A stretch of 21,774 bases of DNA, from positions 1 through 21,774 of the IMG/VR virus record IMGVR_UViG_3300025012_000303; one strand, 5' to 3'. The notes below the pieces were generated by a model. That model was not told the DNA's origin and ran no database searches. It saw only the letters and a program-made list of their open reading frames with translations. Positions 6,155 to 21,675 of the stretch are shown piece by piece. How positions within the stretch are numbered: position 1 is the first letter of the stretch; every line of letters begins with the position of its first letter. Origin of the DNA: a virus. A program made the position numbers and the translations under genes.

Positions 6155-7558
6155 CTAAACACCTACTAACTCTGTTAATATAACTGGGTCTTTTACCCAC
6201 CTATACGGATTAATTGGATAAACACCGTTTTTAATAAACTCTTGTTTTACTAACTCTTTATTCTGGTTTATATGCTCTACATTCATTAAATCGTAGTTAT
6301 AAAAATAGTTAGTAATAACACTACCACCTGATTTTAATCTACTAATTAAATTTACAAACACACTACTAAACTTTTCTGGGTGTAAATGTTCAATAGCATC
6401 TAGTAATAATATCCAATCATAATTATCTGTTAGCTGAAACCCACAACTAATTTTATGTTTTTCACTTCTCCATTTAACAAACTCTTCGGCATAACTACCA
6501 GGAACATCAACAAAATCTACATAATGACCTCTCCTTGCTAACTCAAAACCAACTGGAGCAGAACCACAACAAAAATCTAAACCCTTTATAGGTACTCCGT
6601 TTGTATGATTAAACATAGACAATATTGCTACGTCATTCTTTTTAATTCCTGGATTACTGTGAAATATAACATTTCTAGCTAGTTGGTTTACACCTAAACC
6701 CCTGTAGTAATCTTCTAGATTATTTATATCAAAGTTACCAAAATTACTATCTTTGTACATAATAGCTAACTCTTCTAATTCATACATAGACTTACCACTA
6801 AACAATCTTGCATCTGTTTCATAATCTGATAAAGTAGAAAATACAGGTTTAGCTTTTTGTATATCAGAACGAGCTAACCACTCGTCTGTTTCTTTTACGT
6901 GTTTAGCAATATTCTTAGAAGTTATAACCTCCCTTTCAGTTTTTATATGCCCTAACTCTATAGAGGTATCACACCAAATTTCAAAACCAACCTGTTTAGC
7001 TTTTCTACAAACTTGTATATCTGTACCGTATTCAAACTCTGGTTCAAACCAGGGTGAAGGTATTTTGTCAAAAACCTCTTTACGTATAAGCATACAACCC
7101 CCACCAGTTACATCTACCTTCTGTAAACCACCAGTAACCTCTTCATGAGTTTTAAAGAAATACTGTCCGTTATATTCCTCCATGATTACAGGTTCACATT
7201 TACCTCCTCTTTGGTAATACAAAGCACCAATTATACCCTTTTTAGAATCAGCCTCTAAGTGACCAATTAACACTTTTAAAAACTCGTAGCTAGTATCCGG
7301 TCCTAGTGTTTTATTAATATCAATAACATGGTCATCATCTAACATAAGTATATAATCACTATCATAAACAAGTGCTGCTTGTACTATTGCATTCCTAGCT
7401 CTGAACTGTTCTGACTTACCTTTAATAGCTAAAAAGAAATCATACTCAGTATATCTTCTGCCTAAGTAAAAAGCAAATCTCATGTAATCTTCAAGAACTT
7501 CAAATGGTACGTCCCTATAACAAGGAATACCTATGCAAATAGATTTCTTTTTACTCAT
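6155..7558 (-). CDS. Glycosyltransferase (GT-A) fused to SAM methyltransferase
   Basis: 467 aa, two enzyme-like halves. Residues 1 to about 240 look like a GT-A nucleotide-sugar transferase: strand SICIGIPCYRD at 6-16, the RARN motif at 53-56, the metal-binding DDDH at 74-77, and KVDVTGGGCMLIRKEVFDKI followed by EYGTDIQVCRKAKQVGFEIW. Residues about 321-467 look like a class I methyltransferase: motif I GLDFCCGSAPVGFELARRG at 326-344 and DWILLLDAIEHLHPEKF near 381-397. The linker is helical. Likely roles are adding a sugar and a methyl group to a virion protein, a host-surface glycan or DNA; the substrate is unknown. The ATG overlaps the end of the zinc-ribbon gene (ATGAGTAA), which suggests the two are made together. 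Confidence 0.8.
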   Translation of the reverse strand: MSKKKSICIGIPCYRDVPFEVLEDYMRFAFYLGRRYTEYDFFLAIKGKSEQFRARNAIVQAALVYDSDYILMLDDDHVIDINKTLGPDTSYEFLKVLIGHLEADSKKGIIGALYYQRGGKCEPVIMEEYNGQYFFKTHEEVTGGLQKVDVTGGGCMLIRKEVFDKIPSPWFEPEFEYGTDIQVCRKAKQVGFEIWCDTSIELGHIKTEREVITSKNIAKHVKETDEWLARSDIQKAKPVFSTLSDYETDARLFSGKSMYELEELAIMYKDSNFGNFDINNLEDYYRGLGVNQLARNVIFHSNPGIKKNDVAILSMFNHTNGVPIKGLDFCCGSAPVGFELARRGHYVDFVDVPGSYAEEFVKWRSEKHKISCGFQLTDNYDWILLLDAIEHLHPEKFSSVFVNLISRLKSGGSVITNYFYNYDLMNVEHINQNKELVKQEFIKNGVYPINPYRWVKDPVILTELVGV

Positions 7559-9564: not shown

Positions 9565-10344
9565 TTAATCCGTAATCCCTAACTGTTTCTTAGCTATATC
9601 AAAGGCTTCTTGTACTGTCTTAGCTTTGCTAGGTGTAACAACTCCTCCCCTACCTTTGCTAGTCTGAGTAATAACCTTCTCTGTTTTAGTAGATGCTTTT
9701 TTAACAGTAGCAGCTCTATCAGCTCCAGTCTTACTCAAAGTGTATAAACTATCAAGGTCATCTCTTAAAGAAGGGTGTTTCTTTACCAACTCTGACATTA
9801 CATCTTCATACAGATACCAATCTGGATGATTTTCGTTCAGGTATGCAATAGCAGTCTGAGCTTTTATATTAGCTTGTTCTGTTCTCATACTAGCTATCGT
9901 CGGTGCTAGTGTATCCTGAACTATTTTACGTATCCATTTTGTAGTATCTGTATCAGATACTTCTTCACCAGTTTGTTGATTAACTGGCTGCTGTATCTGA
10001 ACTCCTGCCTTTCTAGCTAGTTGTTCTATAGCCTGTTGAGGATTTGTCATAAGCTGGTCGTACATAGCTACCTTGTCTCTGTCTCCAGCTATACGTTGCA
10101 TTGCCCTAGTGAAGGATTTTTGCATAGCCTTAAAAGAAGGTAGCAGTTCCTTTGGTAGCTCATTAGGGTTCATAAATGTTTGTTCTTTATCAGAGGGTTC
10201 AACCTCAGTCTCTGTATCAACTTCAGCAACCTCCTCTGTTTCTACTTCTACTTCTACTTCTACTTCTTCCTGCTCCTGCTCCTGCTCAGTGAGGTTCTTA
10301 CCTTCATCAGTAAGGTTCTCATTTTGTTCTACTACTGTTGGCAT
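9565..10344 (-). CDS. Head scaffolding protein (probable)
   Basis: 259 aa, ATG 7-8 bases after AAAAGGAGGGG. It is highly acidic and Gln-rich at the N-terminus (NLTEQEQEQEEVEVEVEVET), then predicted helical, with FMNPNELPKELLPSFKAMQK, QAIEQLARKAGVQIQQPVNQ and SMRTEQANIKAQTAIAYLNE. The C-terminus is basic (KKASTKTEKVITQTSKGRGG, VVTPSKAKTVQEAFDIAKKQ). An acidic helical protein with a basic C-terminal coat-binding tail, placed immediately before the major capsid gene, is the usual pattern of internal scaffolds. No protease motif is visible. The acidic repeat is encoded by a hexanucleotide microsatellite (10243-10287). Confidence 0.75.
   Translation of the reverse strand: MPTVVEQNENLTDEGKNLTEQEQEQEEVEVEVEVETEEVAEVDTETEVEPSDKEQTFMNPNELPKELLPSFKAMQKSFTRAMQRIAGDRDKVAMYDQLMTNPQQAIEQLARKAGVQIQQPVNQQTGEEVSDTDTTKWIRKIVQDTLAPTIASMRTEQANIKAQTAIAYLNENHPDWYLYEDVMSELVKKHPSLRDDLDSLYTLSKTGADRAATVKKASTKTEKVITQTSKGRGGVVTPSKAKTVQEAFDIAKKQLGITD
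10243..10287. repeat. Hexanucleotide microsatellite inside scaffold gene
   Basis: On the plus strand TACTTC is repeated four times (10243-10266), followed after three bases by CTGCTC three times (10270-10287). On the coding strand these read as GAAGTA and GAGCAG units, giving EV and EQ dipeptides. Every unit is in frame, so copy number can change without a frameshift. Confidence 0.85.
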
Positions 10345-17927: not shown

Positions 17928-19390
17928 ATAATACCCCTGTTCATCAACCCAAACACTTCTCTTCTGTTCTGTCCAGTTCTTTTACTAATAGCTGTAGCTG
18001 TTAACATACGTTCCCGCAAGGCTAAAAAGCTATTAAAAGGAGTCTTAGCAGCTATCTTGGCTGGATTAGGTCTAGTCATTATACCATACCGTAAGGCATC
18101 ACAAGCATGATCGTTCATTTTTTTAGGTTGTTCTTTACTAGTGTCTTCACTACTACGATTCTTCCATATATAATCAGGTATTTCCAGAATAAGGTTAACA
18201 CAGTTTCTGAAAATAAAAAGGGTAGGGCTACCTAGAGTAGCTGTTAGTGGATGAATCTTATCTGGCCTAATGGTCAGGAACTCCCCTACCCTATTTATAC
18301 CAGCTTCTACTTCGTTGTTAGCCTTGCTACAGTATAGACCGTGTTCTCTGTATTCATCAGCTACAGACCAGAATTTGTGGTCCTTCTCCATAGTCCTACC
18401 CCAAGATTCGGGAGGAAGTTTTGTACAGGTATAGTCTTCATTCTCTGATAGCGACTTAATAGCTTTACAGTGGTCACTGACCAAGCCAGGACTGTAATAC
18501 TCCCGATAAACATAAATATTCCCGTCATAATCTATAGCAAACCATAAGCAAGCTGTAGGATTAACCTGCCCGTGGTCTATGGCTCTGAACTTACGCCATT
18601 CCTGTGGTATGGAGAAAGGCTCTATAACATGATCGTTGAAGTCAAACATAGGCCAAATCTGACCAGCTAAAGCATCCCAGTTCCCTTTTATATACTTAGA
18701 AACCCAAGATTCTGGATTTGATTCTTTAAGGTCAGGGATGTAGTCAGAGGGTAGGTAGGGATTATCTGTAGGAAGAGCCTGTATAAAACTATGTCTAGGT
18801 AAAGGTTTACCCATCTTCTCAGGAGTTACAAACAGATTCTTAACCCAACCTGGTTCAGGATTACTGGCTAATAGACCTGTAAATGGAGGGTATGTACCAG
18901 AAGGGAGCTTCCATCTAAGGCGGGATTTCAGCATTCTGAAGTTATCCAACACTGTTTCAGAAGCTTCGTCTATACCAAAAAAGCCTATCTCCAGTGACTT
19001 AATACGTTCAAAATCAGAAGCCTCTCCCAAACCACCGTAGAGGATTTCACTTCCGTTTGTAAAGTAAAGCATTTTATCTGTTTTATGGTGATTAGACAAC
19101 AACCGCTGCTTAGTGATTGATTCTATTTCTGCTACTAACTTTAGGAGAGTTTTCAGTGTAGTATTAACAAAAGCTCTAGATTCATGTCTACAGAGAAAGC
19201 CTCTATTACCATTAAAAGCTAATGACAACCGTAAGCTCTCTGCTGCTACTGCTACCGACTTACCTCCTCCTACCGCACCTCCGTATAGCTTATACCTAGC
19301 TGGACAATCCCTGAACTGAGCCTGTCTGTGTGTAGGGCCTTTTACTCCGTATAGAAGGTCTATACCAGTGTCAGTCGGTGTTAGTAGCAC
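17924..19390 (-). CDS. terL: Terminase large subunit
   Basis: 488 aa with GTG start (MLLTPTDTG), GGAGAA about 8 bases upstream, overlapping the small-subunit gene by 20 bases. It is the packaging motor and DNA nuclease. N-terminal ATPase: Walker A YGGAVGGGKS at 36-45, Walker B IGFFGIDEASE at 135-145 with the catalytic Glu, and the LLASNPEPGWVK coupling motif near 173-184. C-terminal RNase H-like nuclease: first Asp in FRAIDHGQVNPTACLWFAID (D272) and the last acidic site in NDHACDALRYGI near residue 440. All the key residues are present, so it should be active. It cuts concatemers and threads DNA through the portal. Overlap with the small subunit suggests coupled translation. Confidence 0.93.
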   Translation of the reverse strand: MLLTPTDTGIDLLYGVKGPTHRQAQFRDCPARYKLYGGAVGGGKSVAVAAESLRLSLAFNGNRGFLCRHESRAFVNTTLKTLLKLVAEIESITKQRLLSNHHKTDKMLYFTNGSEILYGGLGEASDFERIKSLEIGFFGIDEASETVLDNFRMLKSRLRWKLPSGTYPPFTGLLASNPEPGWVKNLFVTPEKMGKPLPRHSFIQALPTDNPYLPSDYIPDLKESNPESWVSKYIKGNWDALAGQIWPMFDFNDHVIEPFSIPQEWRKFRAIDHGQVNPTACLWFAIDYDGNIYVYREYYSPGLVSDHCKAIKSLSENEDYTCTKLPPESWGRTMEKDHKFWSVADEYREHGLYCSKANNEVEAGINRVGEFLTIRPDKIHPLTATLGSPTLFIFRNCVNLILEIPDYIWKNRSSEDTSKEQPKKMNDHACDALRYGIMTRPNPAKIAAKTPFNSFLALRERMLTATAISKRTGQNRREVFGLMNRGII

Positions 19391-19805
19391 TATCTAGTTC
19401 TCCTGTTTCATTCTGAACCTCCCAGTGAGGAGGAGTATATAGATTAATAGAACCTGAAACTTCTTGTTCTAATTTGATAGCAGGATTAAAACCGGTTCGG
19501 TTTAGGATTTCCCTCGCTGACTGTAGCCGAACTCTGGGGTCTGTATCGGTTACAGTATCAGACAGAGCATCTATAGCTTTATCAGACAGAATATTCAACT
19601 TGTCCTGCCTACTAGACCTACGCTCTTCACGGAGTTTAGATTCAACCTGCTTCCATATTTGGCTACTTCTCAGAAGGGAAAGCCTAGATTCTGTTATAGA
19701 AAACTCCGCTGCTACTTGTCTAGGTAGAACTCCTTCCAAAAGCCTAAGCATAATCGCTTCGTGTCTGGCAGATAGCTGGTCTATATCGGACATAAGAGTA
19801 GTCAT
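19371..19805 (-). CDS. terS: Terminase small subunit (probable)
   Basis: 144 aa from the first ATG (MTTLMSDIDQL), or 140 aa from the second ATG at 19793. The predicted promoter lies so close (-10 at 19820-19815) that transcription would start around 19808, leaving almost no leader for the first ATG and about 15 bases for the second. The N-terminal part is a helix-turn-helix-like DNA-binding domain (LEGVLPRQVAAEFSITESRL SLLRSSQIWK), followed by a charged helix (VESKLREERRSSRQDKLNIL) and a helical oligomerisation region (DPRVRLQSAREILNRTGFN). It should recognise viral DNA and load the large subunit. Direct adjacency to the large terminase gene supports this. Confidence 0.75.
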   Translation of the reverse strand: MTTLMSDIDQLSARHEAIMLRLLEGVLPRQVAAEFSITESRLSLLRSSQIWKQVESKLREERRSSRQDKLNILSDKAIDALSDTVTDTDPRVRLQSAREILNRTGFNPAIKLEQEVSGSINLYTPPHWEVQNETGELDSATNTD

Positions 19806-19858
19806 TTCCTGTATAGTGTAGCAGGGCTTTTAGGAAATGTCAAGATTTTTTTTAAAAA
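19803..19858 (-). promoter_or_regulatory. Late-operon promoter before terminase
   Basis: On the minus strand TTGACA (19842-19837), a perfect -35 box, is followed after exactly 17 bases by TACACT at 19820-19815, with an A/T-rich upstream stretch. It points at the terminase genes. The expected start site, about 19808, is within a few bases of the first ATG. The upstream half of this promoter is repeated at 19963-19986. Confidence 0.7.
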
Positions 19859-19986
19859 CAAATGTCCATTTATACACTCTTAATACACTTTGTAAACATT
19901 ACACCCTTGTATAGCTCAGAATGGCCAAAGGTCGCTTAGACATTTACAAAATAGCTTTTTCAGAAATGTCAAGATTTTTTTAAAAA
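19834..19986. repeat. Duplicated promoter-like element (two direct copies)
   Basis: A 24-25 base sequence containing GAAATGTCAAGA, a T7-8 run and A5 occurs at 19834-19858 and again at 19963-19986, 129 bases apart. On the minus strand both copies provide the same TTGACA -35 box preceded by an A/T-rich tract. The first has a good -10 at 17 bases; the second has only a weak one (TTGTAA). The second may be an upstream operator, a second promoter or a relic. Confidence 0.7.
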
Positions 19987-20281: not shown

Positions 20282-20569
20282 ATGAATAAAAACCACAAAG
20301 AAACAAGAGAGGTAGATGCAAAAAAGGTCAATCAGAAGAAGACTATTGATATTATGGTTTATTCTGATGCAGACCTTAAAGAATGCACCCACTTTCCTTT
20401 TGAAGAACTGAAGTTTATCAATAAACAACTTATAATCAAGGCAATGGATGCTTGTAGAAAAGAGATGGAAGAGCCTGAAAAGGCTAAAGATAGAGAATTG
20501 CTATCCCTGCTGAAGGGCCTTTCTCCGGATCAGCTTGCAGCTATTCAGAAGATGCAGCCAAAGGGATAA
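20282..20569 (+). CDS. Charged protein of unknown function, rightward block
   Basis: 95 aa, ATG 7 bases after AAGGAG. I do not recognise it. The first 22 residues are very polar and basic (MNKNHKETREVDAKKVNQKK). Residues 23-60 contain a possible mixed alpha/beta core (TIDIMVYSDADLKECTHFPF EELKFINKQLII). The rest is a charged helix (KAMDACRKEMEEPEKAKDRE) and a short end (LLSLLKGLSPDQLAAIQKMQ). The last segment resembles the small amphipathic tail that ends some DNA-binding proteins, but no helix-turn-helix is clear. It has its own promoter and terminator, so it is a separate unit and may be regulatory or early. A copy of the TGCTATCC word lies in its coding frame (20499-20506). Confidence 0.7.
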   Translation: MNKNHKETREVDAKKVNQKKTIDIMVYSDADLKECTHFPFEELKFINKQLIIKAMDACRKEMEEPEKAKDRELLSLLKGLSPDQLAAIQKMQPKG

Positions 20570-20594
20570 TATCCCTGCCCAATAGCACCCTATA

Positions 20595-20631
20595 GAGGGC
20601 ATAGCAATCAATCGCTATGCCCTCTTTTTTT
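20595..20631 (+). terminator. Strong intrinsic terminator
   Basis: GAGGGCATAGC (20595-20605) pairs perfectly over 11 bp with GCTATGCCCTC (20614-20624) around an 8-base loop (AATCAATC), followed by seven T (20625-20631). It closes the 95-aa gene 26 bases after its stop. This is a textbook rho-independent terminator. Confidence 0.9.
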
Positions 20632-20790: not shown

Positions 20791-21006
20791 CTATTCCTAA
20801 GCTATTGATATATAAAGCTATATCCTAAAATAAGCTAAAATAAAAAGAGATAAGCTTTCCCTATTCCTAAGCTATTGATATATAAGCCCATACCTCAGAA
20901 TGAGCAAAGGTAGGGATAAGCTTTCCCATCATGCAAGCTATTGATTTTATAGGCAATATATCAAAATGAGATAAGATTCTGCAAAAGGGCTATGCCTATG
21001 CCTACC
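20791..21006 (+). repeat. Left array: three imperfect units of 47-70 bp
   Basis: Units begin AAGCTATTGAT at 20799, 20869 and 20935 (steps of 70 and 66 bases). Units 1 and 2 share a 25-base stretch without a mismatch (20791-20815 and 20861-20885). They end near GATAAGCTTTCCC (20849-20861) and GGGATAAGCTTTCCC (20913-20927). Unit 3 ends GATAAGATTCTGC and leads into TGCAAAAGGGCTATGCC. Confidence 0.85.
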
Positions 21007-21110
21007 CCCCCCCTTTTTCTATGTAGTCTTCCCTTACGTGTAGTCTGTACGTGTGTGATTTTTTTTTTTTTTTTTTTTTATATAAACACTACACGTAGTC
21101 TGACAGTAGA
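21005..21110. other. Centre of the inverted arrays: C9, T21, nested inverted repeat
   Basis: A C9 run (21005-21013), an ACGTGTAGT/ACTACACGT inverted pair (21036-21044 and 21088-21096), a T21 run (21059-21079) and two direct GTAGTCTG words (21040 and 21095) sit between the arms. No gene or promoter is evident. A long T run could act as an unwinding or phase-variable element. Confidence 0.6.
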
Positions 21111-21128
21111 TTAGTAGGACAGACGTAA

Positions 21129-21345
21129 GCCGAGGCATAGGCAGGCATAGCCTATTTTGCAATTCTTATCCCTATTTAAGAATAGCTCATATATATCAAT
21201 AGCTTAAATAGCATCAAAGCTTATCCCTACTTTATCTCATTCTGCTATTTAGCAATAAAATCAATGGCTTAGAGATAGCAAAAGCTTATCCCTACTTTAG
21301 CATTATTTTATTTCTTAGGCATTCATATCAGATATCAAAGCTATT
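21129..21345 (-). repeat. Right array: inverted counterparts of the left units
   Basis: Read on the minus strand, units start with AAGCTATTGATATATATG at 21205 and AAGCCATTGATTTTATTGC at 21270, and a degenerate AGCTTTGATATCTGATATG near 21342. Their ends are GGGATAAGAAT, AGTAGGGATAAGCTTTG and AGTAGGGATAAGCTTTT. The inner end is TGCAAAATAGGCTATGCC, matching the left array's inner end except for a 4-base insertion. A further AAGCTATTGATTTTA at 21338 is in plus orientation. Confidence 0.8.
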
Positions 21346-21381
21346 GATTTTATTAAGAATTTCCCTCTTTAAATATATGCC

Positions 21382-21410
21382 TTGCTATTCTATTCTATCT
21401 CTGCTATATT
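21382..21410 (+). promoter_or_regulatory. Promoter of the 85-aa gene, possibly leaderless
   Basis: TTGCTA (21382-21387), 17-base spacer, TATATT (21405-21410) with TGC just before it. The expected start, about 21417, is at or next to the ATG at 21418. It resembles the promoter of the 95-aa gene (TTGCTAT ... CTGCTATAA). Confidence 0.55.
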
Positions 21411-21417
21411 ATAAGGA

Positions 21418-21675
21418 ATGAGCAAATATTATAATAAAATGCAAGCATATCTTATTCAGAAACAACGTGTAGCTACCTACTCCGAGTCTAAAAAAATAAA
21501 AAACCTTCTATGTGAATTAGTCCGCAGAGACCCTTCCTGTGGTCTGGATGTGAGTGAGTTCTGGAAGTTAAGGGAACAGTTAAGACATTTAAGTAGAGTT
21601 CTGGACGACAAAATGCGACAGAACTTCTTGCTACGTATAGGAGATATAAACCCACTAAAAACTTTAATAAAGTAG
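21418..21675 (+). CDS. Small charged helical protein, rightward block
   Basis: 85 aa. The ATG at 21418 is preceded by AAGGA with only 1-2 bases of spacing, too close for a normal site, so it may be read as leaderless; the internal ATG (MQAYLIQKQR) has no better site. The protein is helical and charged (MSKYYNKMQAYLIQKQRVAT, SKKIKNLLCELVRRDPSCGL, SEFWKLREQLRHLSRVLDDK), with a positive net charge. No enzyme motif is visible. It could be a small DNA- or RNA-binding protein. It has a promoter of its own and precedes another gene 35 bases further on. Confidence 0.65.
   Translation: MSKYYNKMQAYLIQKQRVATYSESKKIKNLLCELVRRDPSCGLDVSEFWKLREQLRHLSRVLDDKMRQNFLLRIGDINPLKTLIK

Follow-up and report, generated by a model that had tools for sequence, protein, structure and literature searches.

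Two facing arrays of repeated sequence boxes, which mirror each other to within about 1 bp around a tract of 21 T residues, occupy a 560-base non-coding stretch in a fragment of a tailed-phage genome and probably form a two-sided replication origin, with initiator boxes arranged around an unwinding tract. The window analysed here is the whole IMG/VR record of an uncultivated virus, 21,774 bases in length. The boxes, their arrangement with two-fold symmetry, a soft A/T centre, a non-coding setting shielded by a terminator, a position between early and late genes and the conservation of the geometry are seen in the sequence, while binding of the boxes by an initiator, melting of the tract, the start of replication at this place and its progress in two directions are what these features would imply. 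A two-sided origin is taken as the most likely explanation because the boxes, the soft centre, the terminator-shielded setting and the genome plan together fit it, and because there is a parallel in oriC1 of Sulfolobus. A preliminary description had proposed a bidirectional origin with initiator-binding repeats; this is the best-supported reading, and the proposal as a whole is partly supported.

The left arm (20791-20997, plus strand) consists of three imperfect units with boxes directed to the centre, and the right arm (21143-21349, minus strand; mirror-sum 42140) of three mirror-image units, which confirms the three facing units per side noted earlier, except that the outermost right unit is degenerate. 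Each unit spans 55-70 bp and contains two kinds of box. Boxes of the AAGCTATTGAT type start at 20799, 20869 and 20935 on the plus strand and, inverted, at 21195 and 21260, the sixth, outermost right copy being degenerate; those of the GRGATAAG type start at 20847, 20913 and 20968 (plus strand) and at 21165, 21220 and 21285 (inverted). The direct repeats at 20791, 20861 and 20927 (family D1) are 63-81% identical, and those at 21195 and 21260 (family D2) 80%. For the mirrored GATAAG boxes the position sums are 42139, 42140 and 42140, and therefore the dyad lies at 21069.5-21070, in the middle of the T tract, with the key box pairs symmetric to within 1 bp. When the entire window was scanned for ungapped mirror symmetry, the best centre was 21070.0 (z 6.1, against 4.4 for the next), and in a k-mer mirror score of 69 non-coding gaps from this phage and its relatives the array gap ranked first (z=22). 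The match between the arms was reached in none of 1000 shuffles, and the design, described before as near-symmetric, is thus sharper than had been noted. The 4-base insertion ascribed to the innermost ends, by contrast, is not needed: 20968-20997 and 21143-21172 align as mirror images without a gap, at 22 of 30 positions.

A mirror image of this kind could also be produced during assembly, if two copies of a single arm were wrongly joined. The right arm is known from this record only and the arms have exact 17-mers in common; nevertheless, such an artefact is extremely unlikely. The arms have different flanks, and even in their best-matching 50 nt (20896-20945 against 21195-21244, 78% complementary) they differ at about 22% of positions. 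In addition, the T tract carries no adapter sequence, unlike that of a chance match treated below. The worry about misassembly is further lowered by the relatives, in which the presence of the arms had been proposed as a check of the origin reading, a check whose outcome favours that reading: the left arm is kept in a close relative (L005), and the joined ends of a distant relative (G001) yield at the same place an independent mirror array with the same geometry and another sequence.

Boxes of the AAGCYATTGAT type occur in the window only at the array, and those of the GATAAG type have few matches elsewhere; because the box families are concentrated at the array, they do not represent a phage-wide promoter. 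A 34-bp composite element, ATCAATRGYTT-N11-AWGCTTATCYCT, is present in four copies, two per arm, and nowhere else in the window; none would be expected, and none ever appeared in shuffled sequences. The left copies (20846-20879 and 20912-20945) are on the minus strand and the right copies (21195-21228 and 21260-21293) on the plus strand, the inner two being mirror partners with a sum of 42140 and the outer two with a sum of 42139. Multiple copies of specific boxes are thus clustered in one non-coding locus, as in origins of the iteron type. DnaA boxes of the E. coli type (TTATNCACA) have 31 near matches versus 30.4 expected, and none lies within the array, which does not show the DnaA-box cluster of a bacterial DnaA-dependent origin.

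The T21 tract at the dyad centre (21059-21079, plus strand), the proposed unwinding tract, lies within a 29-bp run of A and T only (21058-21086), the longest in the window. At 30 bp it belongs to the softest 0.03% of the window, although at 50 bp it is not the window's softest place. An easily opened A+T-rich tract adjoins the boxes, as it does in iteron-type origins. The centre had been described as T21/C9, of which the T tract stands, since it is found at the equivalent place in L005 and G001, whereas the C9 tract (21005-21013, plus strand) is not conserved in L005 (CCCTACCCTACCC...) and is probably incidental. An Rfam search gave no structured RNA match, and single-strand DNA folding was unremarkable (z -0.7 to -2.0).

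The array is located between the early and late gene blocks, ahead of the early genes. The late block runs leftward, starting with the terminase small subunit (19371-19805, minus strand), and comprises the small and large terminase subunits (19805-17924), the portal (17604-15820) and the major capsid protein (9507-8455); matches to an SU10-type portal and adaptor are weak. About 850 non-coding bases, which include the array, separate a 95-aa gene on the left (20282-20569, plus strand) from the first gene on the right, which encodes 85 aa (21418-21675, plus strand) and has no family match. The earlier placement next to divergent genes is therefore close, but the divergence is about 0.9 kb to the left of the array, which has a rightward gene on either side. 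An intrinsic terminator-like hairpin of 12 pairs followed by a T run (20594-20625, plus strand), the stem of which is also present in L005, separates the 95-aa gene from the array. A sigma70-like promoter match (9/12) lies just right of the array at 21382-21410 on the plus strand, and a further promoter-like site at 19843-19815.

With such neighbours, the array might instead be a set of regulatory operators, to both arms of which a repressor or activator of the phage would bind and, by looping the DNA, control early transcription from the promoter at 21382 and perhaps late transcription from the divergent one. The two promoter-like sites, the rightward gene whose start is some 70 bp beyond the right arm and the small gene left of the array would suit this explanation, which is nevertheless unlikely: a pair of mirror arms of about 200 bp with a long, conserved T tract between them is more than operators need, the late promoter is about 1 kb away with the terminator in between, shuffled sequences contain sigma70-like promoter matches no less often, and the central T tract is left unexplained.

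In L005, the terL of which is 98% identical to that of the window, the left arm is kept box for box, and the contig ends in the T tract. An identical single-base change from GATAAGCTTT to GATAAGCATT in two array units of L005 hints at concerted change of the boxes. When the viral contig collection was scanned for the composite element with a spacer of N10-12, L005 was the sole match.

It should be noted that the 95-aa gene is 57% identical to its same-place counterpart in L005 (514-801), compared with 97-98% for terL and portal, and thus evolves or is exchanged much faster than its surroundings; the G001 counterpart is weakly similar, and the predicted structure of the protein (pLDDT 66) is too poor to use. 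Its C-terminal motif, L..L.GLSP..I...LG, recurs in similar form at the end of several small early G001 proteins (L016 11044-11340, 13721-14137, 18241-18672 and 18623-19015; L015 314-691), and is perhaps a short DNA-binding tail common to otherwise different proteins. A direct repeat, GCTTTT..GAAATGTCAAGATTTTTTT..AAAAA, is present at 19825-19859 and 19956-19986, between two promoter-like sites that diverge, one belonging to the late block and one to the 95-aa gene; it is partly kept in L005 and represents a possible operator pair.

The contig of the distant relative G001 (40,818 bp, 40.8 kb; terL 63%, capsid 60%) has an A tract at either end, both on the same strand, and its ends, if joined as the two contig ends suggest, would give a mirror layout like that of the window, built from another box, ATTCCTAAT. 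The TTCCTAA boxes lie at 207, 163, 152, 90 and 83 bp to the left of the junction and at 203, 159, 149, 93, 84 and 77 bp to its right, and 10 of the 15 copies of ATTCCTAA in G001 are found within 300 bp of it. A mirror scan of the whole G001 genome had its best centre at the junction, which ranked second of 69 in the gap test (z=13.7) and includes the 50 bp of lowest stability in G001. The genes diverge from the site, with the late genes in one direction and the replication genes in the other; the latter include a lytic replisome set of PolA-UDG, DUF3987 primase/helicase, Sak4, an SSB-like protein and an exonuclease. The flanks of the T tract are only marginally conserved between the window and G001 (p 0.04 and 0.024). 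The geometry of the array appears to be kept while the sequence of its boxes turns over. In G001 the GC skew changes sign at the site; however, the gene that runs rightward on the left side of the array has positive skew in all three genomes, and GC skew was rejected as origin evidence since it follows the coding strand, is therefore not independent and cannot place an origin.

Contig ends within the tract raise the possibility of a packaging site, where a terminase would recognise the arrays and cut at or near the T tract, the tract then being the physical end of the packaged genome. Two of the three contigs (L005 and G001) end within the tract, and terS is about 1 kb away. The window, however, reads through the T tract, and the A tracts on the same strand at both ends of G001 are consistent with a single tract that was split, the genome being circular or terminally redundant, and not with inverted terminal repeats. 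Long homopolymers commonly break assemblies, the known pac and cos sites are directional and lack two-fold symmetry, and a weaker array in the relative L048 is more than 5 kb from the terS-like gene of that contig (5665-6147). A packaging site is accordingly improbable.

Long inverted repeats are also a feature of recombination, partition and telomere-resolution sites (attP, parS-like sites or hairpin telomeres), and G001 encodes a ParB_N-methyltransferase fusion. A function of this kind is very unlikely here: neither an integrase, which attP would require from the phage, nor a protelomerase was found among the larger early G001 proteins scanned, no ParA was seen, and the arms are imperfect (78% in the best 50 nt) and separated by 145 bp, whereas telomere-resolution sites have near-perfect central palindromes.

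If the array is a two-sided origin, it can be compared with origins of known type. Origins of papilloma-, polyoma- and herpesviruses have binding sites that are arranged as a dyad around an A/T centre; the likeness of these two-fold symmetric animal DNA virus origins to the phage array is one of geometry alone, and their genes and sequences are unrelated to it. In oriC1 of Sulfolobus, ORB2 and ORB3 are inverted and flank an AT-rich potential DUE (PMC12141716), and the phage array likewise has polar boxes inverted on both sides of an AT-rich tract, in the manner of the archaeal ORB-DUE-ORB arrangement. It differs in its three multi-box units per arm, its homopolymeric T tract, its bacteriophage-like genome and box sequences that are unrelated among relatives. 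Despite the similar geometry, the array is not assigned to the archaeal type, as no Orc1/Cdc6 was found among the larger early G001 proteins or the window ORFs scanned. Lambdoid phages carry their iteron array on one side of an AT-rich region, and ori-lambda, with its O-protein iterons, resembles the site described here in that repeated boxes adjoin an AT-rich tract in a phage (PMC7466680); however, its single array lies inside the initiator gene O, whereas here two mirror arrays lie in non-coding DNA, and no O homologue was seen. Iteron plasmid origins of the P1, F and RK2 type also have a repeat array adjoining an A+T-rich opening region (PMC5043065), from which the phage array is distinguished by its unit length of 55-70 bp, its two kinds of box and its dyad symmetry, with no Rep gene identified. 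An initiator gene was recognised neither in the window, from which the replication half is absent, nor among the early G001 proteins scanned.

Such an origin would belong to a tailed phage of about 40 kb and would be worked by a phage-encoded initiator, copies of which would occupy the box pairs of all three units on either side. As mirror images at equal distances, the arms would give rise to two facing complexes, which would load onto or distort the T-rich centre and open it, and the phage replisome would then establish two divergent forks, of which one would enter the late genes and the other the early genes.

A tentative extension, possible but doubtful, is that there is a class of phage origins set by geometry and not by sequence, in which mirror multi-box arms are phased to about 1 bp around a T homopolymer, the boxes are replaced jointly on both arms as the initiator changes, and replication has a symmetric two-helicase start, as in archaea and unlike one-sided lambda. 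The parts are of known kind; for the strict mirror geometry around a T homopolymer combined with box turnover, no description was found in the open-licence full texts searched. As the best-known phage origin, that of lambda, is one-sided, a strict-dyad phage origin would offer a compact model of face-to-face helicase loading in a bacterial virus, and box turnover under constant geometry would provide natural variants for studying how initiator and site change together. If this is true, origins in uncultivated phages could be found by geometry alone.

Neither of the near-complete relatives G008 and G009 was found to have the full layout, and the gap test gave weak matches in G009 and L048 and no mirror array in G008. 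In L048 (terL 48%) the weaker mirror pair (z 6.4) lies at 120-640, in a non-coding gap of the early region, where AAAGTTCTCA boxes are mirror-paired about an A/T centre at 384; a C8 tract is present too. G009 has two weaker mirror arrays (z 5.3-5.4). It also has CCTAG-rich inverted arms (L090 2327-2542) and, in its divergent region, four CGTCACNTTYTTGTTAC repeats with 16-20-bp spacing (L090 1412-1481), which are two candidate origin or operator sites. Among these candidates only the L048 array and the G009 centre at 2434.5 bear any resemblance to the array of the window, and they were not counted as confirmed; a candidate array in L049 was set aside as coding.

A scan of 2.9 million viral contigs for the T-tract-flank pattern (TACGTRTGT-N0-3-T11) retrieved G001, L005 and L098 (IMGVR_UViG_3300011126_000067). 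The last was discarded as false because its T run adjoins an Illumina adapter, CAAGCAGAAGACGGCATACGAGAT, which lies within positions 1-170 of this public viral contig. Nothing was found in a terL-based scan of cellular genome contigs, a portal-based search gave no further near relatives, and a nucleotide search against named phages gave no match.

Two minor observations concern other parts of the window. A 467-aa protein inside the structural block (6155-7558) has weak glycosyltransferase-2 and methyltransferase matches, and G001 has a similar protein of 460 aa at the equivalent position. A TTCTAC hexamer is repeated in 4.7 copies at 10240-10267, inside the coding sequence of a scaffold-like protein of 259 aa, where it encodes a Glu/Val repeat.
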